DNA of 64,000 nt. It comes from Bacillota bacterium. GTDB taxonomy: Bacteria; Bacillota; Clostridia; Peptostreptococcales; Anaerovoracaceae. Below, piece after piece: positions 2,732 to 63,588 of this stretch. The stretch's first letter is position 1. Every line of letters starts with the position of its first letter. The stretch lies in NCBI GenBank assembly GCA_025361765.1, contig JANYJS010000008.1, positions 1-64,000 of the forward strand. Reading direction: 5' to 3'. The notes below the pieces were generated by a model. It was not told where the DNA came from and did not search any database. It saw only the letters and a list, made by a program, of their open reading frames with translations. The translations under genes were made by a program, and so were the position numbers.

Positions 2732-3694
2732 CTATTTTTTGACAGCTTCTTCTATTTTAAGCTTTTCAGCAATATCTTCAATTTTCTTTAGCCTATGGTT
2801 GACCCCGGATTTTCCCACTGGTGGAATCAGCATTTCGCCCAGTTCCTTGAGGCTGGCCTCTCTTTCGGAAAGTCTCAGCTCGGCCATTTCTCTGAGCTTA
2901 TCAGGAAGGTATCCAAGTCCCCTAATACTCTGAATCAACTCTATACTGTCAAATTGTCTGCCCGAAGCATTGACGGTTTTATCCAGATTGGCGGTTTCAC
3001 AGTTGACCAGACGGTTTGTTTTATTCCTAAGTTCCTTAACAATCCGGATATTTTCAAAATCCAGCAACCTGCCGTGGGCACCAAGTATGTTGAGAAAGTC
3101 CACAATCTGCTCGCCTTCCTTAATATAGACCACATAGCTTTTTTTACGGAGCACCATTTTAGAATGCAGTCCAAAGCTGTTAATCAGCTTTTTTATGTCA
3201 TTTGCCAGGATTTCGCTATTGCAGACGATTTCCAAATGGTAACCTTTTTCGGGATCGCTTATGGATCCCGAACCTAGAAATACACCACGAAGATAGGCCC
3301 TCCTGCAGCATTTTGTTTTGATGATATCATTTGGGATACCTTCCATCAGATAATTGCAGCCTTCCTTAACGCCAAGAATCCCAGTCTCCCGAAGAATCTG
3401 TTCAGCATTCATCCCAGAGGTAATAACCAACTCATAAAAATGTCCTTTCTTGAGCAACTTTGTCTGACTGATGGTCAGCTCTGCATGGATGCCAAAATAA
3501 CTCTGGAGCATTTTAATGAACATCCTCGCCGAAGCCGGATTCTCCGTGATGAGCTTGACATTCATCCTACCACCGCCCGATAGCCTAATCGTACCGCACA
3601 TGCGCATAAATCCAGAAATCTCGGCTAGTGTGCAACACTTGCTCTCAGGCAGGGACTGAGCTAATTCATTTTTAGTGTTGGCAGAGAATGTCAT
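2732..3694 (-). CDS. whiA: DNA-binding protein WhiA
   Basis: A 320-residue WhiA homologue. It has an N-terminal region related to LAGLIDADG homing endonucleases (FMRMCGTIRLSGGGRMNV, then YLRGVFLGSGSI). It ends with a helix-turn-helix (about 255-315: LRLSEREASLKELGEML, then SGVNHRLKKIEDIAEKL). The homing-endonuclease fold has no catalytic role in this family. WhiA is linked to sporulation in Streptomyces and to division and chromosome segregation in Bacillus. It normally sits directly after rapZ and glmR. Here a Nudix gene, kce and two gene remnants separate it from glmR. The start is supported by AGGAG five bases upstream. The length is normal for the family. Confidence 0.93.
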   Translation of the reverse strand: MTFSANTKNELAQSLPESKCCTLAEISGFMRMCGTIRLSGGGRMNVKLITENPASARMFIKMLQSYFGIHAELTISQTKLLKKGHFYELVITSGMNAEQILRETGILGVKEGCNYLMEGIPNDIIKTKCCRRAYLRGVFLGSGSISDPEKGYHLEIVCNSEILANDIKKLINSFGLHSKMVLRKKSYVVYIKEGEQIVDFLNILGAHGRLLDFENIRIVKELRNKTNRLVNCETANLDKTVNASGRQFDSIELIQSIRGLGYLPDKLREMAELRLSEREASLKELGEMLIPPVGKSGVNHRLKKIEDIAEKLKIEEAVKK

Positions 3695-27995: not shown

Positions 27996-28026
27996 AAAAA
28001 AATTCTTTCCCCAAAAGGAAAAGAAT
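27996..28026 (-). terminator. Riboswitch expression-platform terminator
   Basis: On the minus strand a 10-bp stem (ATTCTTTTCC with GGGAAAGAAT, one G-U pair) has a five-base loop and is followed by seven T. It ends about 20 bases before the moeA start, so transcription of the whole operon can be cut here. Confidence 0.85.
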
Positions 28027-28128
28027 CCTAAACGGTATTTTCCTTTCCAAACGGGAGGCTCATACATTTCTCTATGAACCTGTCGGTCAAGCCGCCATAA
28101 CAAATCGTCTTAGGCAGGTTAACTCGGA
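28027..28128 (-). promoter_or_regulatory. Moco-type (molybdenum/tungsten cofactor) riboswitch
   Basis: The minus-strand leader contains GCCTCCCGTTTGGAAAGG (28041-28058), the hallmark of the Moco RNA motif. AACCTG (28120-28115) pairs with CAGGTT (28082-28077), and a short TCATA/TATGA helix follows before the conserved block. It precedes moeA, the expected regulon, and is followed by an intrinsic terminator. TATAAT boxes at 28136-28149 would start transcription right at its 5' edge. Assignment is from the conserved sequence, and whether it prefers Moco or the tungsten form is not decidable here. Confidence 0.82.
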
Positions 28129-28309
28129 AAATATTATTATACTATTATAGGAAACAGTTTATCAGTTGACCCAATTCGTGTCAATCAAATATGGGATTAC
28201 TCATGTTTTAAGAGGTGTCCCGCCTCTGAAATTTAAAACATTTATAGAATGCACAATTTGCTATGATACTTAATACTCTTGTTTTGCATAAGTATCTAAG
28301 AGCATTAAA

Positions 28310-28922: not shown

Positions 28923-30224
28923 TTATTTACCCTCCCTTAAATCAATAACTCTTTTAGCCTTTCCTTCTGACCTGGCTAAGGTCCTCGGTTCATGGAGATT
29001 GACTTTGGCATCTATGCCAAGAACTGTCCTGAGCTTTCCCCGAATAGTCTGATTCAAATTTTCCAGAAGCGTGAAGGAATCCAGAAAATCTTCATCAATC
29101 AGCTCTACGTCTATTTCAATCCGATCCAGATAGCCCTTTTTATAGACTTTGATCTGATAATGCGGTCCAATGCCCTCGATATTGAAAAGCACCTCTTCAA
29201 TTTGAGATGGGAATACGTTAACCCCGCCGAGTATCAACATGTCATCAGTTCTGCCATGAATCTTGGCCATACGCACCGTAGTCCTGCCGCACTCGCATTT
29301 TTCATAATGCAGGGATGTAATATCCTTTGTCCTGTATCTTAAGAGAGGCAGAGCCTCTTTTGTGATTGGCGTAATGATCAGTTCTCCCGATTCTCCAGGG
29401 CCGAGCACCTTTCCAGTATCCGGGTTTATGATCTCCGGAATGAAATGATCCTCAAAAATATGCATCCCGTTGAGACATTGGCATTCTCCAGATACGCCCG
29501 GTCCAATCAGCTCGCTCATGCCATAATTTTCAGTGGCGAAAAGGCCCCAGGCATCGTTGAGCTCTCTTCTCATGGCTTCCGTAGACCCCTCTCCGCCAAA
29601 CAAACCCAGTCTAACCTTTAAATCCTTCTTAGGATCAATGCCCATCTCTCTAGCAACCTCAGCCATATGCAGTCCATAGGAAGGCGTGCCGATCAGGGCA
29701 GTAGTGCCGAAATCTTTCATAATCATAATCTGTTTTTCCGTATTGCCGCTGGACATGGGTATGACTGCGGCCCCCACATGCTCCAGACCCTGATGAAGGC
29801 CAAATGCTCCGGTAAAAAGTCCATAGCCAAAAGAGACCTGAGCAATATCATGAGCCGTCACGCCGGCCATGGTGACCATTCTGGCGATCAGCTCTGTCCA
29901 GGTTGTTATGTCGTTTTTGGTATAGCCAACGACAGTGGGTTTTCCTGTTGTTCCTGAGGACGCATGATATCTGACCACGTCCTTTTGAGGCACCGCAAAA
30001 AGACCAAAAGGATAATTCGCCCTCAGATCATCTTTAACAGTGAAGGGAAGCTTCGCCAGATCATCTAGCGTCCTGATATCGGATGGCTCTAGCCCTGCTT
30101 CCTGAAGTTTGCTTTTGTAATGCGGGACATTGTGATACGCGCTATGCACGGTTTCTGAAAGTCGTTTTTCCTGAATTTTTGTGAATTGATCCCGGGAAAG
30201 TGTTTCGTCCTTGCTCCAAATCAT
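28923..30224 (-). CDS. paaK: Phenylacetate-CoA ligase family protein
   Basis: This 433-residue protein belongs to the adenylate-forming PaaK family and should activate phenylacetate or a related aryl acid to its CoA ester via an acyl-[21 protein letters not shown] is the nucleotide-binding loop (about residues 83-100). YGMSELIGPGVSGEC follows, then the YRTKDI segment, with [16 protein letters not shown] near the C-terminus. Two pairs of cysteines (CQC, CEC) are in the middle. In anaerobes this enzyme can also run toward ATP formation from arylacetyl-CoA. It is followed by an ACT gene and closely resembles the second copy at 61.8 kb. Confidence 0.9.
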   Translation of the reverse strand: MIWSKDETLSRDQFTKIQEKRLSETVHSAYHNVPHYKSKLQEAGLEPSDIRTLDDLAKLPFTVKDDLRANYPFGLFAVPQKDVVRYHASSGTTGKPTVVGYTKNDITTWTELIARMVTMAGVTAHDIAQVSFGYGLFTGAFGLHQGLEHVGAAVIPMSSGNTEKQIMIMKDFGTTALIGTPSYGLHMAEVAREMGIDPKKDLKVRLGLFGGEGSTEAMRRELNDAWGLFATENYGMSELIGPGVSGECQCLNGMHIFEDHFIPEIINPDTGKVLGPGESGELIITPITKEALPLLRYRTKDITSLHYEKCECGRTTVRMAKIHGRTDDMLILGGVNVFPSQIEEVLFNIEGIGPHYQIKVYKKGYLDRIEIDVELIDEDFLDSFTLLENLNQTIRGKLRTVLGIDAKVNLHEPRTLARSEGKAKRVIDLREGK

Positions 30225-59914: not shown

Positions 59915-61546
59915 TCAGTCTACAAATATGCTGCCTCCGATAAACTCTCTAAGCACCGAATTGTTGACAATAATAGAATCATCCTCAATGGAATCAAAAT
60001 GCCTAATAAACCTGAGCATCCTGACCGCCTCGCTGAATTCCGGCTCTTCCTGCGTAATAGATGACAGCAACGGGTAAGCATATTTTTTCAGCACTGCCAG
60101 CTCATAGATATGGGCCGTATTCATAAGCACATCCGCCTCTTGGCTATAGGGAAAAATGTTTTTATCCTCACCTATTCTCACTAATGGCCAGGCTGAGATG
60201 GTTCTTTGCGCCGAATATCCACGGAAATTATGATCCCGTACAATACGGCGAAGCATTCTGGCATCCGTCGTCGGAATTCTGTTGTGCTCATCAATATTAA
60301 TTTGCGTGAAGGGTCCAACATAAATTTTAAATTTTTCTTCATCAGGAATAGACTCTGTCAGCCTTTTATTCAGGCCATGAATCCCTTCAATGACAATTGG
60401 CTGGTCTTTTTGTGCAGTAATGATTCTTTTGCCAAATACCTTGACGCCCAGCTTAAAGTCGTAGACGGGCAAATCCACCTCTTCACCTTTTAAAAGAGCG
60501 TTCATATGGCTATTAAAAAGATCCAGATCAATGCCAGTAATGTCCTCGAAATTCATGTTTCCATTCGCATCGAGAGGTGTATTGACCCGGTCGACAAAAT
60601 AATCGTCGGTTCCCAGATAAATCGGATGCATCCCATTAACCCGAAGCTGAATGCATAATCTGTTGGCAAAGGTCGTCTTGCCTGAGGAGGATGCCCCGGA
60701 AATAAGGATAATTCTTTTGCCTTTTTTGGCAATTCGATCGGCAATCTGGGCGACTTTCTTTTCGTGAAGCGCTTCAGAAATTTGAATGATCTGCTTATAT
60801 TCTCCACTGGCAATTTTTCCGTTCAGATCCGACACCACAGAAATACCCATTAAATCCCCCCACTCAGACGCCTCCTTAAAGGCGTCATAAAGCTTTTTGT
60901 CATCCCGGTATTCTGGCATCCTATCCGGTGATTTTGTATCCGGAAATCTCAAAATGACTCCATCTCCATATTTTCTAAGTTCAAACAACTTGACATATCC
61001 CGTAGAAGGCACCACTGGTCCCACATAAGAGGATCTGGTTTCGCCGCAGGAATACATGGTCGTAGCTAGGCCTCCATTTTCCGATGTGCCTTCTCTGGCG
61101 TGCACCTCTAATATAAAAGGAATGTCCTGTATCACCAGCTCTTTCATTCGCTTTTCTATGGCGGAAACCAGCTTTTGAGGTACCTTTTGGTAGTCCATTA
61201 ATTCCATGTAAAGCCCTTGATTCAAAGAGTTCTCAACATGCACGCTGCAGTTTTGTAGGATTTCAGAAACCGCCTTAATGAATATGAGCGTTGCACTTCT
61301 TTGGTAAACATAGTTAGTGGCATTATCCCGCATGTCCAAAAGCTGAATTTCTGAAAATCCATGTATTTTTCGATTAAGATCCTCCATCTTATTATTGACC
61401 TTAGCCGCCAAAATCGTGTAGGGCAAGTCTGCCTGATAATTTTGGACAATATCTTTAAGGCTGGTGTCTTTATCCACTTCAAGTTTAACGGTGCTAACCC
61501 CTGTATTTAGGTGAATCATGATCTTTTCTGTGCCGCTGTCATTCAT
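59915..61546 (-). CDS. Uridine kinase-like protein with TGS-type N-terminal domain
   Basis: A 543-residue fusion. Residues 8-70 are a TGS-like domain (STVKLEVDKDTSLKDIV), and 75-250 resemble the second additional domain of threonyl-tRNA synthetase. Residues 285-480 are a phosphoribulokinase/uridine kinase domain with Walker A LISGASSSGKTTFANRL and GTDDYFVDRVNTP. The same architecture is widespread in Clostridia and Thermotoga and is annotated as a nucleoside kinase; the substrate is not established. AAGGAGG lies seven bases before the ATG. Its minus-strand TATAAT (61581-61586) faces the paaK promoter. Confidence 0.87.
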   Translation of the reverse strand: MNDSGTEKIMIHLNTGVSTVKLEVDKDTSLKDIVQNYQADLPYTILAAKVNNKMEDLNRKIHGFSEIQLLDMRDNATNYVYQRSATLIFIKAVSEILQNCSVHVENSLNQGLYMELMDYQKVPQKLVSAIEKRMKELVIQDIPFILEVHAREGTSENGGLATTMYSCGETRSSYVGPVVPSTGYVKLFELRKYGDGVILRFPDTKSPDRMPEYRDDKKLYDAFKEASEWGDLMGISVVSDLNGKIASGEYKQIIQISEALHEKKVAQIADRIAKKGKRIILISGASSSGKTTFANRLCIQLRVNGMHPIYLGTDDYFVDRVNTPLDANGNMNFEDITGIDLDLFNSHMNALLKGEEVDLPVYDFKLGVKVFGKRIITAQKDQPIVIEGIHGLNKRLTESIPDEEKFKIYVGPFTQINIDEHNRIPTTDARMLRRIVRDHNFRGYSAQRTISAWPLVRIGEDKNIFPYSQEADVLMNTAHIYELAVLKKYAYPLLSSITQEEPEFSEAVRMLRFIRHFDSIEDDSIIVNNSVLREFIGGSIFVD

Positions 61547-61600: not shown

Positions 61601-61629
61601 TTGACAAAATATAATGCGAAGGATATATT
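61601..61629 (+). promoter_or_regulatory. Sigma-A promoter of the second paaK-ACT pair
   Basis: TTGACA (61601-61606), a 17-bp spacer and TATATT (61624-61629) form a strong promoter. Its -35 overlaps that of the divergent uridine-kinase-like gene. Confidence 0.78.
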
Positions 61630-61636
61630 CTTTAAA

Positions 61637-61732
61637 TAAAGACATCTCAAAACTGTTAAGAATCAAGCTGTCTATAGACTGCAAAGAGTCGGTGCCACGG
61701 GTTTCCCGTCTCCATTGAGATTGGGATTTTTT
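61637..61732 (+). promoter_or_regulatory. Structured leader with terminator (possible attenuator or short T-box-like element)
   Basis: The leader can form CCCGTCTC/GAGATTGGG followed by seven T, an intrinsic terminator. ATCTCAA (61644-61650) is complementary to TTGAGAT (61715-61721), a competing pairing that would break it. GACT/AGTC and ACGGG/CCCGT hairpins lie between. AGAGTCGGTGCCACGGG resembles the T-box antiterminator sequence, but the leader has no room for a normal stem I. I call it an attenuator of unknown ligand. Confidence 0.5.
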
Positions 61733-61773
61733 TATATAATTTAATAATATTTAATCATGAAAGGGTGATGATG

Positions 61774-63072
61774 ATGATATGGAATGAACCACAGGAATGC
61801 ATGAGCAGAGACAATATGCACAGTTTGCAGAGCCGTCGTCTGCAGGATATGGTCAGCAGAGTTTATCACAACGTAGCTTTTTATCGAAAAAAAATGCAGG
61901 AATTAGGCCTTGAACCTGGCGACATTAAGCTTATCGATGATTTGCCAAAACTTCCTTTTACGACTAAGACGGATCTTCGAGACAACTATCCTTTTGGTCT
62001 CTTTGCTGTACCAAAAAGTGAAATCGTCCGGGTACACGCATCTTCAGGCACCACTGGCAAGCCAACAGTTGTTGGCTATACCAGAAGAGATGTGGATATG
62101 TTCTCTGAAGTCGTTGCCAGATCCCTATGTTCAGCCGGCGCAAGCCGCCATGATATCATACAGATTGCCTATGGCTACGGACTCTTTACCGGTGGCCTCG
62201 GTCTGCATTATGGTTCAGAGAAAATCGGCGCCACAGTCGTGCCCATAAGCGGCGGCAATACAGCTAAGCAGCTTCAGCTTCTTCAGGATTTCGGCAGCAC
62301 TGTGCTAGCCTGCACGCCTTCCTATGCCTTATACCTGGCAGAATCCATGAAGGAAGCCGGCATTGATCCACAAGAGCTTCCCTTGAGGCTTGGGATTTTC
62401 GGCGCCGAGCCCTGGACGGAAGAAATGCGAAAAGCCATCGAAGAAGCCCTATCCATAAAGGCCATCGATATCTTCGGTCTTTCCGAAATTATCGGGCCGG
62501 GCGTCTCCTGTGAATGCGAAAACCAAAACGGCCTCCATATTGCGGAGGATCATTTTGTTCCTGAAATTATAGATCCAAGCAGTCTTGACCCTATTACTAA
62601 GGAAAATACTGGTGAACTGGTCTTCACAACGGTCACCAAAGAGGCTCTTCCCCTGCTCCGCTACCGCACCAGAGATTTGACCAGCCTGAATTATGAAGCC
62701 TGCTCCTGCGGCAGAACCACGGTTCGCATGCACAAATGCACTGGCAGGTCGGATGACATGCTAATCATCAGAGGCGTCAACGTTTTCCCGTCTCAAGTCG
62801 AAAGCGTACTTCTTGAATTAAGAGAAACCATGCCTCATTATCTGCTGATCGTGGATCGGGTCGGCGCTCTTGATACGCTTGAGGTTCAAGTAGAGGTAGA
62901 CGATCAGTATTTCTCCGACGAAATGACCAAGCTTGAAGCTTTGAGCAGAAAAATCAAACATGCTGTCGAAAGCGTCCTTGGGGTCAGCGTCAAGATTAAG
63001 CTGGTCGAGCACAAAACCATCCAAAGAAGCGAAGGCAAGGCTCAGCGCATTATAGATAAAAGGAAGCTATAA
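61774..63072 (+). CDS. paaK: Phenylacetate-CoA ligase family protein (second copy)
   Basis: A 432-residue paralogue of the protein at 28.9-30.2 kb. [18 protein letters not shown] (nucleotide loop), [38 protein letters not shown] and [20 protein letters not shown] are shared nearly word for word. It should form an aryl-acyl-CoA via an adenylate. Several start codons are stacked (GTG, then three ATG). I chose the last ATG at 61774 because it gives MIW, as in the paralogue, with AAAGGG at a good distance. It is followed by its own ACT gene after 93 bp. Confidence 0.9.
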
Positions 63073-63165: not shown

Positions 63166-63588
63166 ATGATTATTAAACAATTATCTGTTTTTTTAGAAAA
63201 CGAATCTGGAAGACTGACCGAATTGACTAAAATACTCCATGAAAATAACATCAATATCTCCGCTTTAAGTATTGCAGAGACTGAGCAGTACGGCATTATG
63301 CGCATGATCGTAGATAAGCCAGACCAGGCGATTGCTGCTTTAAAAAAAGAAGATTTTTCGGTTCATACAACGGATGTCATTTGCATCGTCACACCGGACA
63401 GCCCAGGTTCCTTAAATGCTGCTTTAACTTACTTATCAGAAGCAAGCATCAATGTGGCTTATATGTATGGCTACTCCAGCTGCGGCAAGGCGCCTATCAT
63501 CATGAAGGTCAGCGACCCGGCAAAAGCTGTGGCTATTTTGACTGAAAAAAACGTATCTTTGATACCTGCGAGCGAGTTTTATAAATAA
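63166..63588 (+). CDS. Tandem ACT-domain protein (second copy)
   Basis: At 140 residues, this is two ACT domains: IIKQLSVFLENESGRLTEL (residues 2-20) and DSPGSLNAALTYLSEASINVAYMYGYS (about 73-99). It is paralogous to the ACT protein at 28.5 kb. AAAGGAGG precedes the ATG. The pairing with PaaK in both places makes regulation of, or ligand delivery to, the ligase the simplest role. The gap of 93 bp to paaK contains only degenerate TTAAGA/ATAA repeats and no terminator, so cotranscription is likely. Confidence 0.86.
   Translation: MIIKQLSVFLENESGRLTELTKILHENNINISALSIAETEQYGIMRMIVDKPDQAIAALKKEDFSVHTTDVICIVTPDSPGSLNAALTYLSEASINVAYMYGYSSCGKAPIIMKVSDPAKAVAILTEKNVSLIPASEFYK

Follow-up and report, generated by a model that had tools for sequence, protein, structure and literature searches.

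Stem I has been described as obligate for T-box function (PMC7583486), and the UGGN bulge of the antiterminator is the contact for the acceptor end of the tRNA (PMC7583486, PMC7778990). A reduced 5′ domain is a feature of the ultrashort Stem I T-boxes of Actinobacteria, which are class II and translational; these keep the specifier loop, the K-turn and Stem II. The leader of paaK described here is likewise reduced in its 5′ domain but has none of these elements. It lies in the window (the whole 64,000-nt stretch of DNA analysed), and its counterpart in the closest relative, genome G035 (locus L008), is a complete class I T-box with a phenylalanine specifier. We consider it highly probable that the window leader is the 3′ remnant of such a class I, Phe-specific (UUC) T-box, now a fixed, leaky attenuator that is blind to tRNA. 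The features of the locus are as follows.

59915–61546, minus strand: divergent uridine kinase-type gene (PF00485), which anchors the orthologous position of the leader
61601–61629, plus strand: sigma-70-type promoter, TTGACA-17-TATATT, called on 11 of 12 consensus matches and conservation with G035
61636–61682, plus strand: replacement segment of about 47 nt that takes the place of the Stem I, Stem II, IIA/B and Stem III of relatives
61644–61650, plus strand: 5′ half of a long-range pairing, ATCTCAA, complementary to 61715–61721
61667–61682, plus strand: small hairpin GCTGTCTATAGACTGC at the Stem III position, followed by AA and without an RRRNG purine string on its 5′ side
61686–61712, plus strand: remnant T-box antiterminator, from the alignment of 19 intact orthologous antiterminators
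61689–61696, plus strand: broken T-box bulge TCGGTGCC, 8 nt against TGGTACC in relatives, from the alignment to G035
61704–61733, plus strand: intrinsic terminator with a hairpin of −9.6 kcal/mol, orthologous to the T-box terminators of relatives
61715–61721, plus strand: 3′ half of the long-range pairing, TTGAGAT, overlapping the 3′ arm of the terminator
61774–63072, plus strand: paaK, phenylacetate-CoA ligase-like, its start placed by homology at 61774, with in-frame ATGs upstream at 61768 and 61771
63166–63588, plus strand: ACT-domain gene 3′ of paaK (PF19571, ACT_8), syntenic in nearly all orthologous loci (tblastn)

The order divergent uridine kinase-type gene, leader, paaK, ACT gene is that of the orthologous loci, and the divergent neighbour is also found in G035, G010, G300, G025, G022 and others. 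The promoter is a strong one, and the leader measures about 100 nt. The paaK product scores 604.6 bits against TIGR02155, under the equivalog cut-off of 646.3, matches the AMP-binding_C_2 domain and is 89% identical to the G035 protein. Between the two genes, dN is about 0.09, with synonymous sites near saturation and a reading frame that is intact and conserved. As PaaK is intact and conserved, its gene must be expressed somehow. The window also encodes a second PaaK paralogue (28923–30224, minus strand; 55% identical) upstream of a molybdopterin cluster, and two PaaKs occur in several relatives as well, at times in tandem (G009 and G085). A molybdenum/tungsten cofactor riboswitch (RF01055, 72.2 bits; 28024–28141, minus strand) immediately precedes two moeA-like genes, moaA and moaC.

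The orthologous phenylalanine T-box

PaaK orthologues were gathered from the same family and order, giving 41 loci; closer relatives were sought by peptide patterns in GTDB contigs, which returned distant PaaKs only. A T-box scoring above the RF00230 gathering score precedes paaK in 24 of the 41 loci, and four more were recognized by motif. The T-box of G035, at the same syntenic place as the window leader, scores 115 bits and has the specifier UUC (Phe), as GAA-G-UUC. UUC is the specifier in the seven paaK T-boxes for which a residue-level alignment was made, and AAGTTC occurs upstream in the others. A Phe-specific T-box on paaK is found across the order, consistent with a role of PaaK in phenylalanine synthesis from phenylacetate. 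No published link between a T-box and paaK was found in the literature searched, outside which the main T-box surveys lie, and we do not claim the link as new.

In a PaaK tree, the window gene and that of G035 form a pair with 100% support, within a set in which T-boxes are widespread. On this tree the presence of the T-box must have changed six times or more among the genomes sampled, although some of the loci called as having none are rearranged or at contig ends. Because G035 carries a full T-box at the same place and 24 of the 41 orthologous loci carry one, the parsimonious reading of these sequences is that the T-box is ancestral and was lost in the lineage of the window. The ancestor would have had a Phe-specific class I T-box controlling paaK.

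Two parts of the leader retain the mark of that descent. The promoter (TTGACA at 61601–61606, a 17-nt spacer and TATATT at 61624–61629) predicts a transcription start at about 61636. Its surroundings are identical to those of the G035 promoter, which lies ahead of the intact T-box, at 33 of 43 positions, and the antiterminator–terminator module matches G035 at 41 of 50; in each case 0 of 3,000 shuffles were as good. Synonymous divergence between the two paaK genes is greater by comparison: the sensing half is gone, whereas the promoter and the expression hairpins persist though only 65 of 174 fourfold-degenerate sites of paaK (37%) are identical.

No match to RF00230 was found in the window at the gathering threshold or in the leader at E ≤ 10, and the search of the whole genome gave nothing at the paaK leader. 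A covariance model was built from 19 orthologous paaK antiterminators of other genomes, the window being excluded. This model ranks 61684–61735 first in the whole 2.2-Mb genome, with 34.4 bits; the next five matches are leaders that RF00230 also recognizes, before valS, ileS, trpB, leuA and aroF. Synteny, conservation of promoter and module, and the first genome-wide rank together attest common descent with T-box leaders. A degraded T-box was one of two readings offered by the first-pass annotation, which had been made from the sequence and its open reading frames. That reading is upheld by the orthologous position, the conserved promoter and 3′ module, the intact UUC-specifier T-box of G035 and the covariance rank, and the promoter that it called is confirmed by the consensus matches and the conservation with G035.

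The same genome has a further Phe-type T-box (GAA-G-UUC; locus L041, C124:18527–18800, minus strand) before a DAHP synthase gene, so that Phe-tRNA control persists elsewhere in it. Seven other T-box matches in this genome precede ileS, valS, leuA, trpB, thrS, a ketoacid oxidoreductase gene and an asparagine synthase-like gene.

Antiterminator, bulge and terminator

The window leader resembles the G035 T-box in position, promoter, helix A2, terminator and regulated gene. It differs in having no Stem I with specifier, Stem II, IIA/B or canonical Stem III, in its bulge, in the length of helix A1 and in falling under any Rfam threshold. Helix A2 (ACGGG 61697–61701 with CCCGT 61705–61709) is intact, whereas helix A1 (GAG 61686–61688 with CTC 61710–61712) has 3 bp against 4–5 bp or more in relatives. 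The 7-nt bulge TGGTACC is invariant in all 19 intact orthologues. In the window it is replaced by TCGGTGCC, in which a C is inserted at 61690, after the U, and an A has become G; the UGGN sequence that pairs with the tRNA NCCA end is not preserved.

The terminator was identified by reading: its arms at 61704–61712 (TCCCGTCTC) and 61717–61726 (GAGATTGGGA) enclose the loop CATT and are followed by seven T residues at 61727–61733. A simple scanner did not list it, probably owing to a bulged T. As in T-boxes, terminator and antiterminator are mutually exclusive, CTC 61710–61712 being shared with A1. The intrinsic terminator, the T-box-like antiterminator, the changed UGGN position and the missing Stem I had all been pointed out at first pass, and each stands: the antiterminator is homologous to real T-box antiterminators, and the bulge differs by the extra C and the A-to-G change.

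The leader descends from a T-box and works from parts of one, but it falls short on defining points (Stem I, UGGN and the Rfam score); it is best classed as a remnant derived from a T-box, not as a T-box that functions. With both Stem I and the UGGN bulge defective, paaK has very probably lost its control by Phe-tRNA: the leader would be unable to recognize the anticodon of the tRNA or to form a proper pairing with an uncharged NCCA end. A minimal T-box that senses only the acceptor end of the tRNA and works without Stem I could make use of helix A2 and of the GGU still present in the bulge, which is able to pair with the ACC of the tRNA end. We regard such a switch as extremely improbable, given that Stem I is described as obligate (PMC7583486), that C61690 interrupts the UGGN pairing, that the canonical antiterminator reaches only −6.1 kcal/mol and that the Stem III position lacks its preceding RRRNG purines.

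The inserted C makes possible a pairing of CGG 61690–61692 with CCG 61706–61708, which would give an antiterminator fold independent of tRNA, at −9.2 kcal/mol against −6.1 kcal/mol for the canonical one. The idea that the antiterminator had become dominant was dropped, as equilibrium folding of the isolated module continues to favour the terminator, with P = 0.97 where relatives have 0.99 or more. For the same reason, partial rather than absent termination is expected. Among the 23 leaders compared, that of the window has the weakest terminator (−10.8 kcal/mol like-for-like; G035, −13.1; others, from about −14 to −26.9), which would favour read-through. Transcripts starting near 61636 would then stop in part at 61727–61733, and the remainder would be read into paaK and the ACT gene. 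We infer the leakiness from these modelled structures, although termination is still the outcome favoured by their predicted energies.

That the module is so well conserved may indicate that it has kept a regulated role. Selection would then have maintained the 3′ module after loss of the sensor, as a tRNA-independent attenuator with the CGG:CCG pairing or the 7-bp long-range pairing as its new antiterminator; we judge this unlikely. It is quite unlikely, too, that the leader is a dead relic without any role and that paaK is transcribed from a newer promoter inside or after the terminator. The terminator arm has diverged from the sequence of relatives, TATAAT at 61735–61740 stands 14 nt from TTGAGA at 61715–61720 (5 of 6 −35 positions), and a 9-of-12 site lies at 61721–61748. 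A 14-nt spacer is poor, however, such matches are expected by chance in a region as AT-rich as this, and the upstream promoter is strongly conserved. The comparison with G035 shows that the window leader has kept the ancestral promoter and antiterminator/terminator module and has lost Stem I and its specifier, Stem II, IIA/B and the canonical Stem III; the fixed attenuator is what we infer from this.

The segment in place of Stem I

About 50 nt separate the predicted start from the antiterminator, and no Stem I with a specifier loop is present in them. The segment 61636–61682 is unrelated to the G035 leader (P = 0.95). The AGUA motif is absent from the leader, and no F-box (CCGUUA-like) lies between promoter and antiterminator, the only CCGT of the leader being in helix A2; Stem II and IIA/B with the F-box, optional T-box elements that are present in orthologues, are likewise missing. 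The hairpin at 61667–61682 is preceded by ATCAA and so does not conform to the RRRNG–Stem III–AA motif (PMC7778990). An ultrashort Stem I T-box was rejected for want of AGUA, an F-box or a plausible specifier loop.

A mobile or repeated element was rejected as the source of 61636–61682, which has no second copy in its own genome. The same truncated leader was not found in other species among 350 genomes of the family, the genus being represented by this genome only. Loss of about 170 nt through an assembly error seems unlikely, as the site is internal to a contig of 95 kb and the substitutions around it do not have the look of such an error.

The second reading offered at first pass, a small riboswitch class responding to an aromatic compound, found no support. 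There is no conserved aptamer, since what lies between promoter and antiterminator has no counterpart in the G035 leader or the 350 family genomes and no second copy in its own genome; no known Rfam riboswitch was detected in the leader. A PyrR binding site (RF00515) was rejected: the match has 19.4 bits (E = 1.5) where the cut-off is 54, and its 5′ arm, overlapping the −10 box, would be left out of the transcript. Attenuation by a leader peptide was discarded, as no ATG occurs from the predicted start to the terminator. On this comparison of sequences, the leader is a degraded form of a known regulator and not a new riboswitch. Elsewhere, an azaaromatic (yjdF) riboswitch lies near the paaK locus of G224 (L088, 4162–4264, plus strand).

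The first-pass annotation had also described the leader as structured RNA with a 7-bp long-range pairing that competes with the terminator. Taken whole, the leader is no more stably folded than shuffled sequence (z = −1.05; 31 of 200 shuffles as good). The pairing itself exists and would exclude the terminator but is near chance when the 5′ segment is shuffled (P = 0.02 for Watson–Crick runs, 0.27 with G–U pairs). The helices, on whose conservation among relatives the earlier proposal had been made to depend, divide accordingly: the long-range helix and the 5′ part are not conserved, A2 and the terminator are.

The leader could alternatively be a re-purposed switch, in which, once the tRNA domain was lost, the 7-bp pairing became a new antiterminator under the control of a small molecule or a protein. 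The two halves pair exactly, and snapshots of folding show this helix as the dominant one for a short span, with transcript ends at 61720–61724 (P about 0.92 at 61722), after which the terminator wins. Its closeness to chance, the unremarkable fold of the leader, the absence of the segment from every relative and the lack of an Rfam aptamer nonetheless make this very improbable.

Remnants in other lineages

Upstream of paaK in G022 (locus L020), the covariance model finds an antiterminator relic at 3006–3058 on the minus strand, with 44.8 bits. Here, as in the window, Stem I is lost, the UGGN bulge is destroyed, and the antiterminator helices and the terminator are kept. The G022 relic differs in its lineage, its intact 5-bp A1, its strong terminator (−22.5 kcal/mol) and its bulge, which is replaced by UUUUU. 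In G010 (L022), about 70 bases upstream of paaK, a sequence containing GACAGGGT resembles the 5′ strand of Stem I, although the match is short; the Stem I-like segment reads GCGACAAAGACAGGGTGAAG. A terminator-like hairpin is kept there and nothing of the antiterminator. As judged from these leader sequences, G022 shows a separate decay of the same T-box in a second lineage, and G010 probably a third.

The window leader is a natural case of a riboswitch that has decayed and whose earlier state is plain to see, in the complete switch of the sister genome G035, and together with those of G022 and G010 it forms a small series for asking in which order the parts of a T-box are lost. If the 3′ module was indeed kept by selection, the relics of G022 and probably G010 would be parallel riboswitches reduced to terminators that set expression.

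Inspection by eye showed a small ORF on the reverse strand, preceded by a ribosome-binding site of its own, between the T-box terminator and paaK in L009, L010, L011, L016, L020, L021 and L026. Where the T-box is intact, one may ask how it can control paaK across this ORF. The ORF encodes a short peptide (...DDSLLFFFLLL...), and some of these loci have intact T-boxes and others a remnant.
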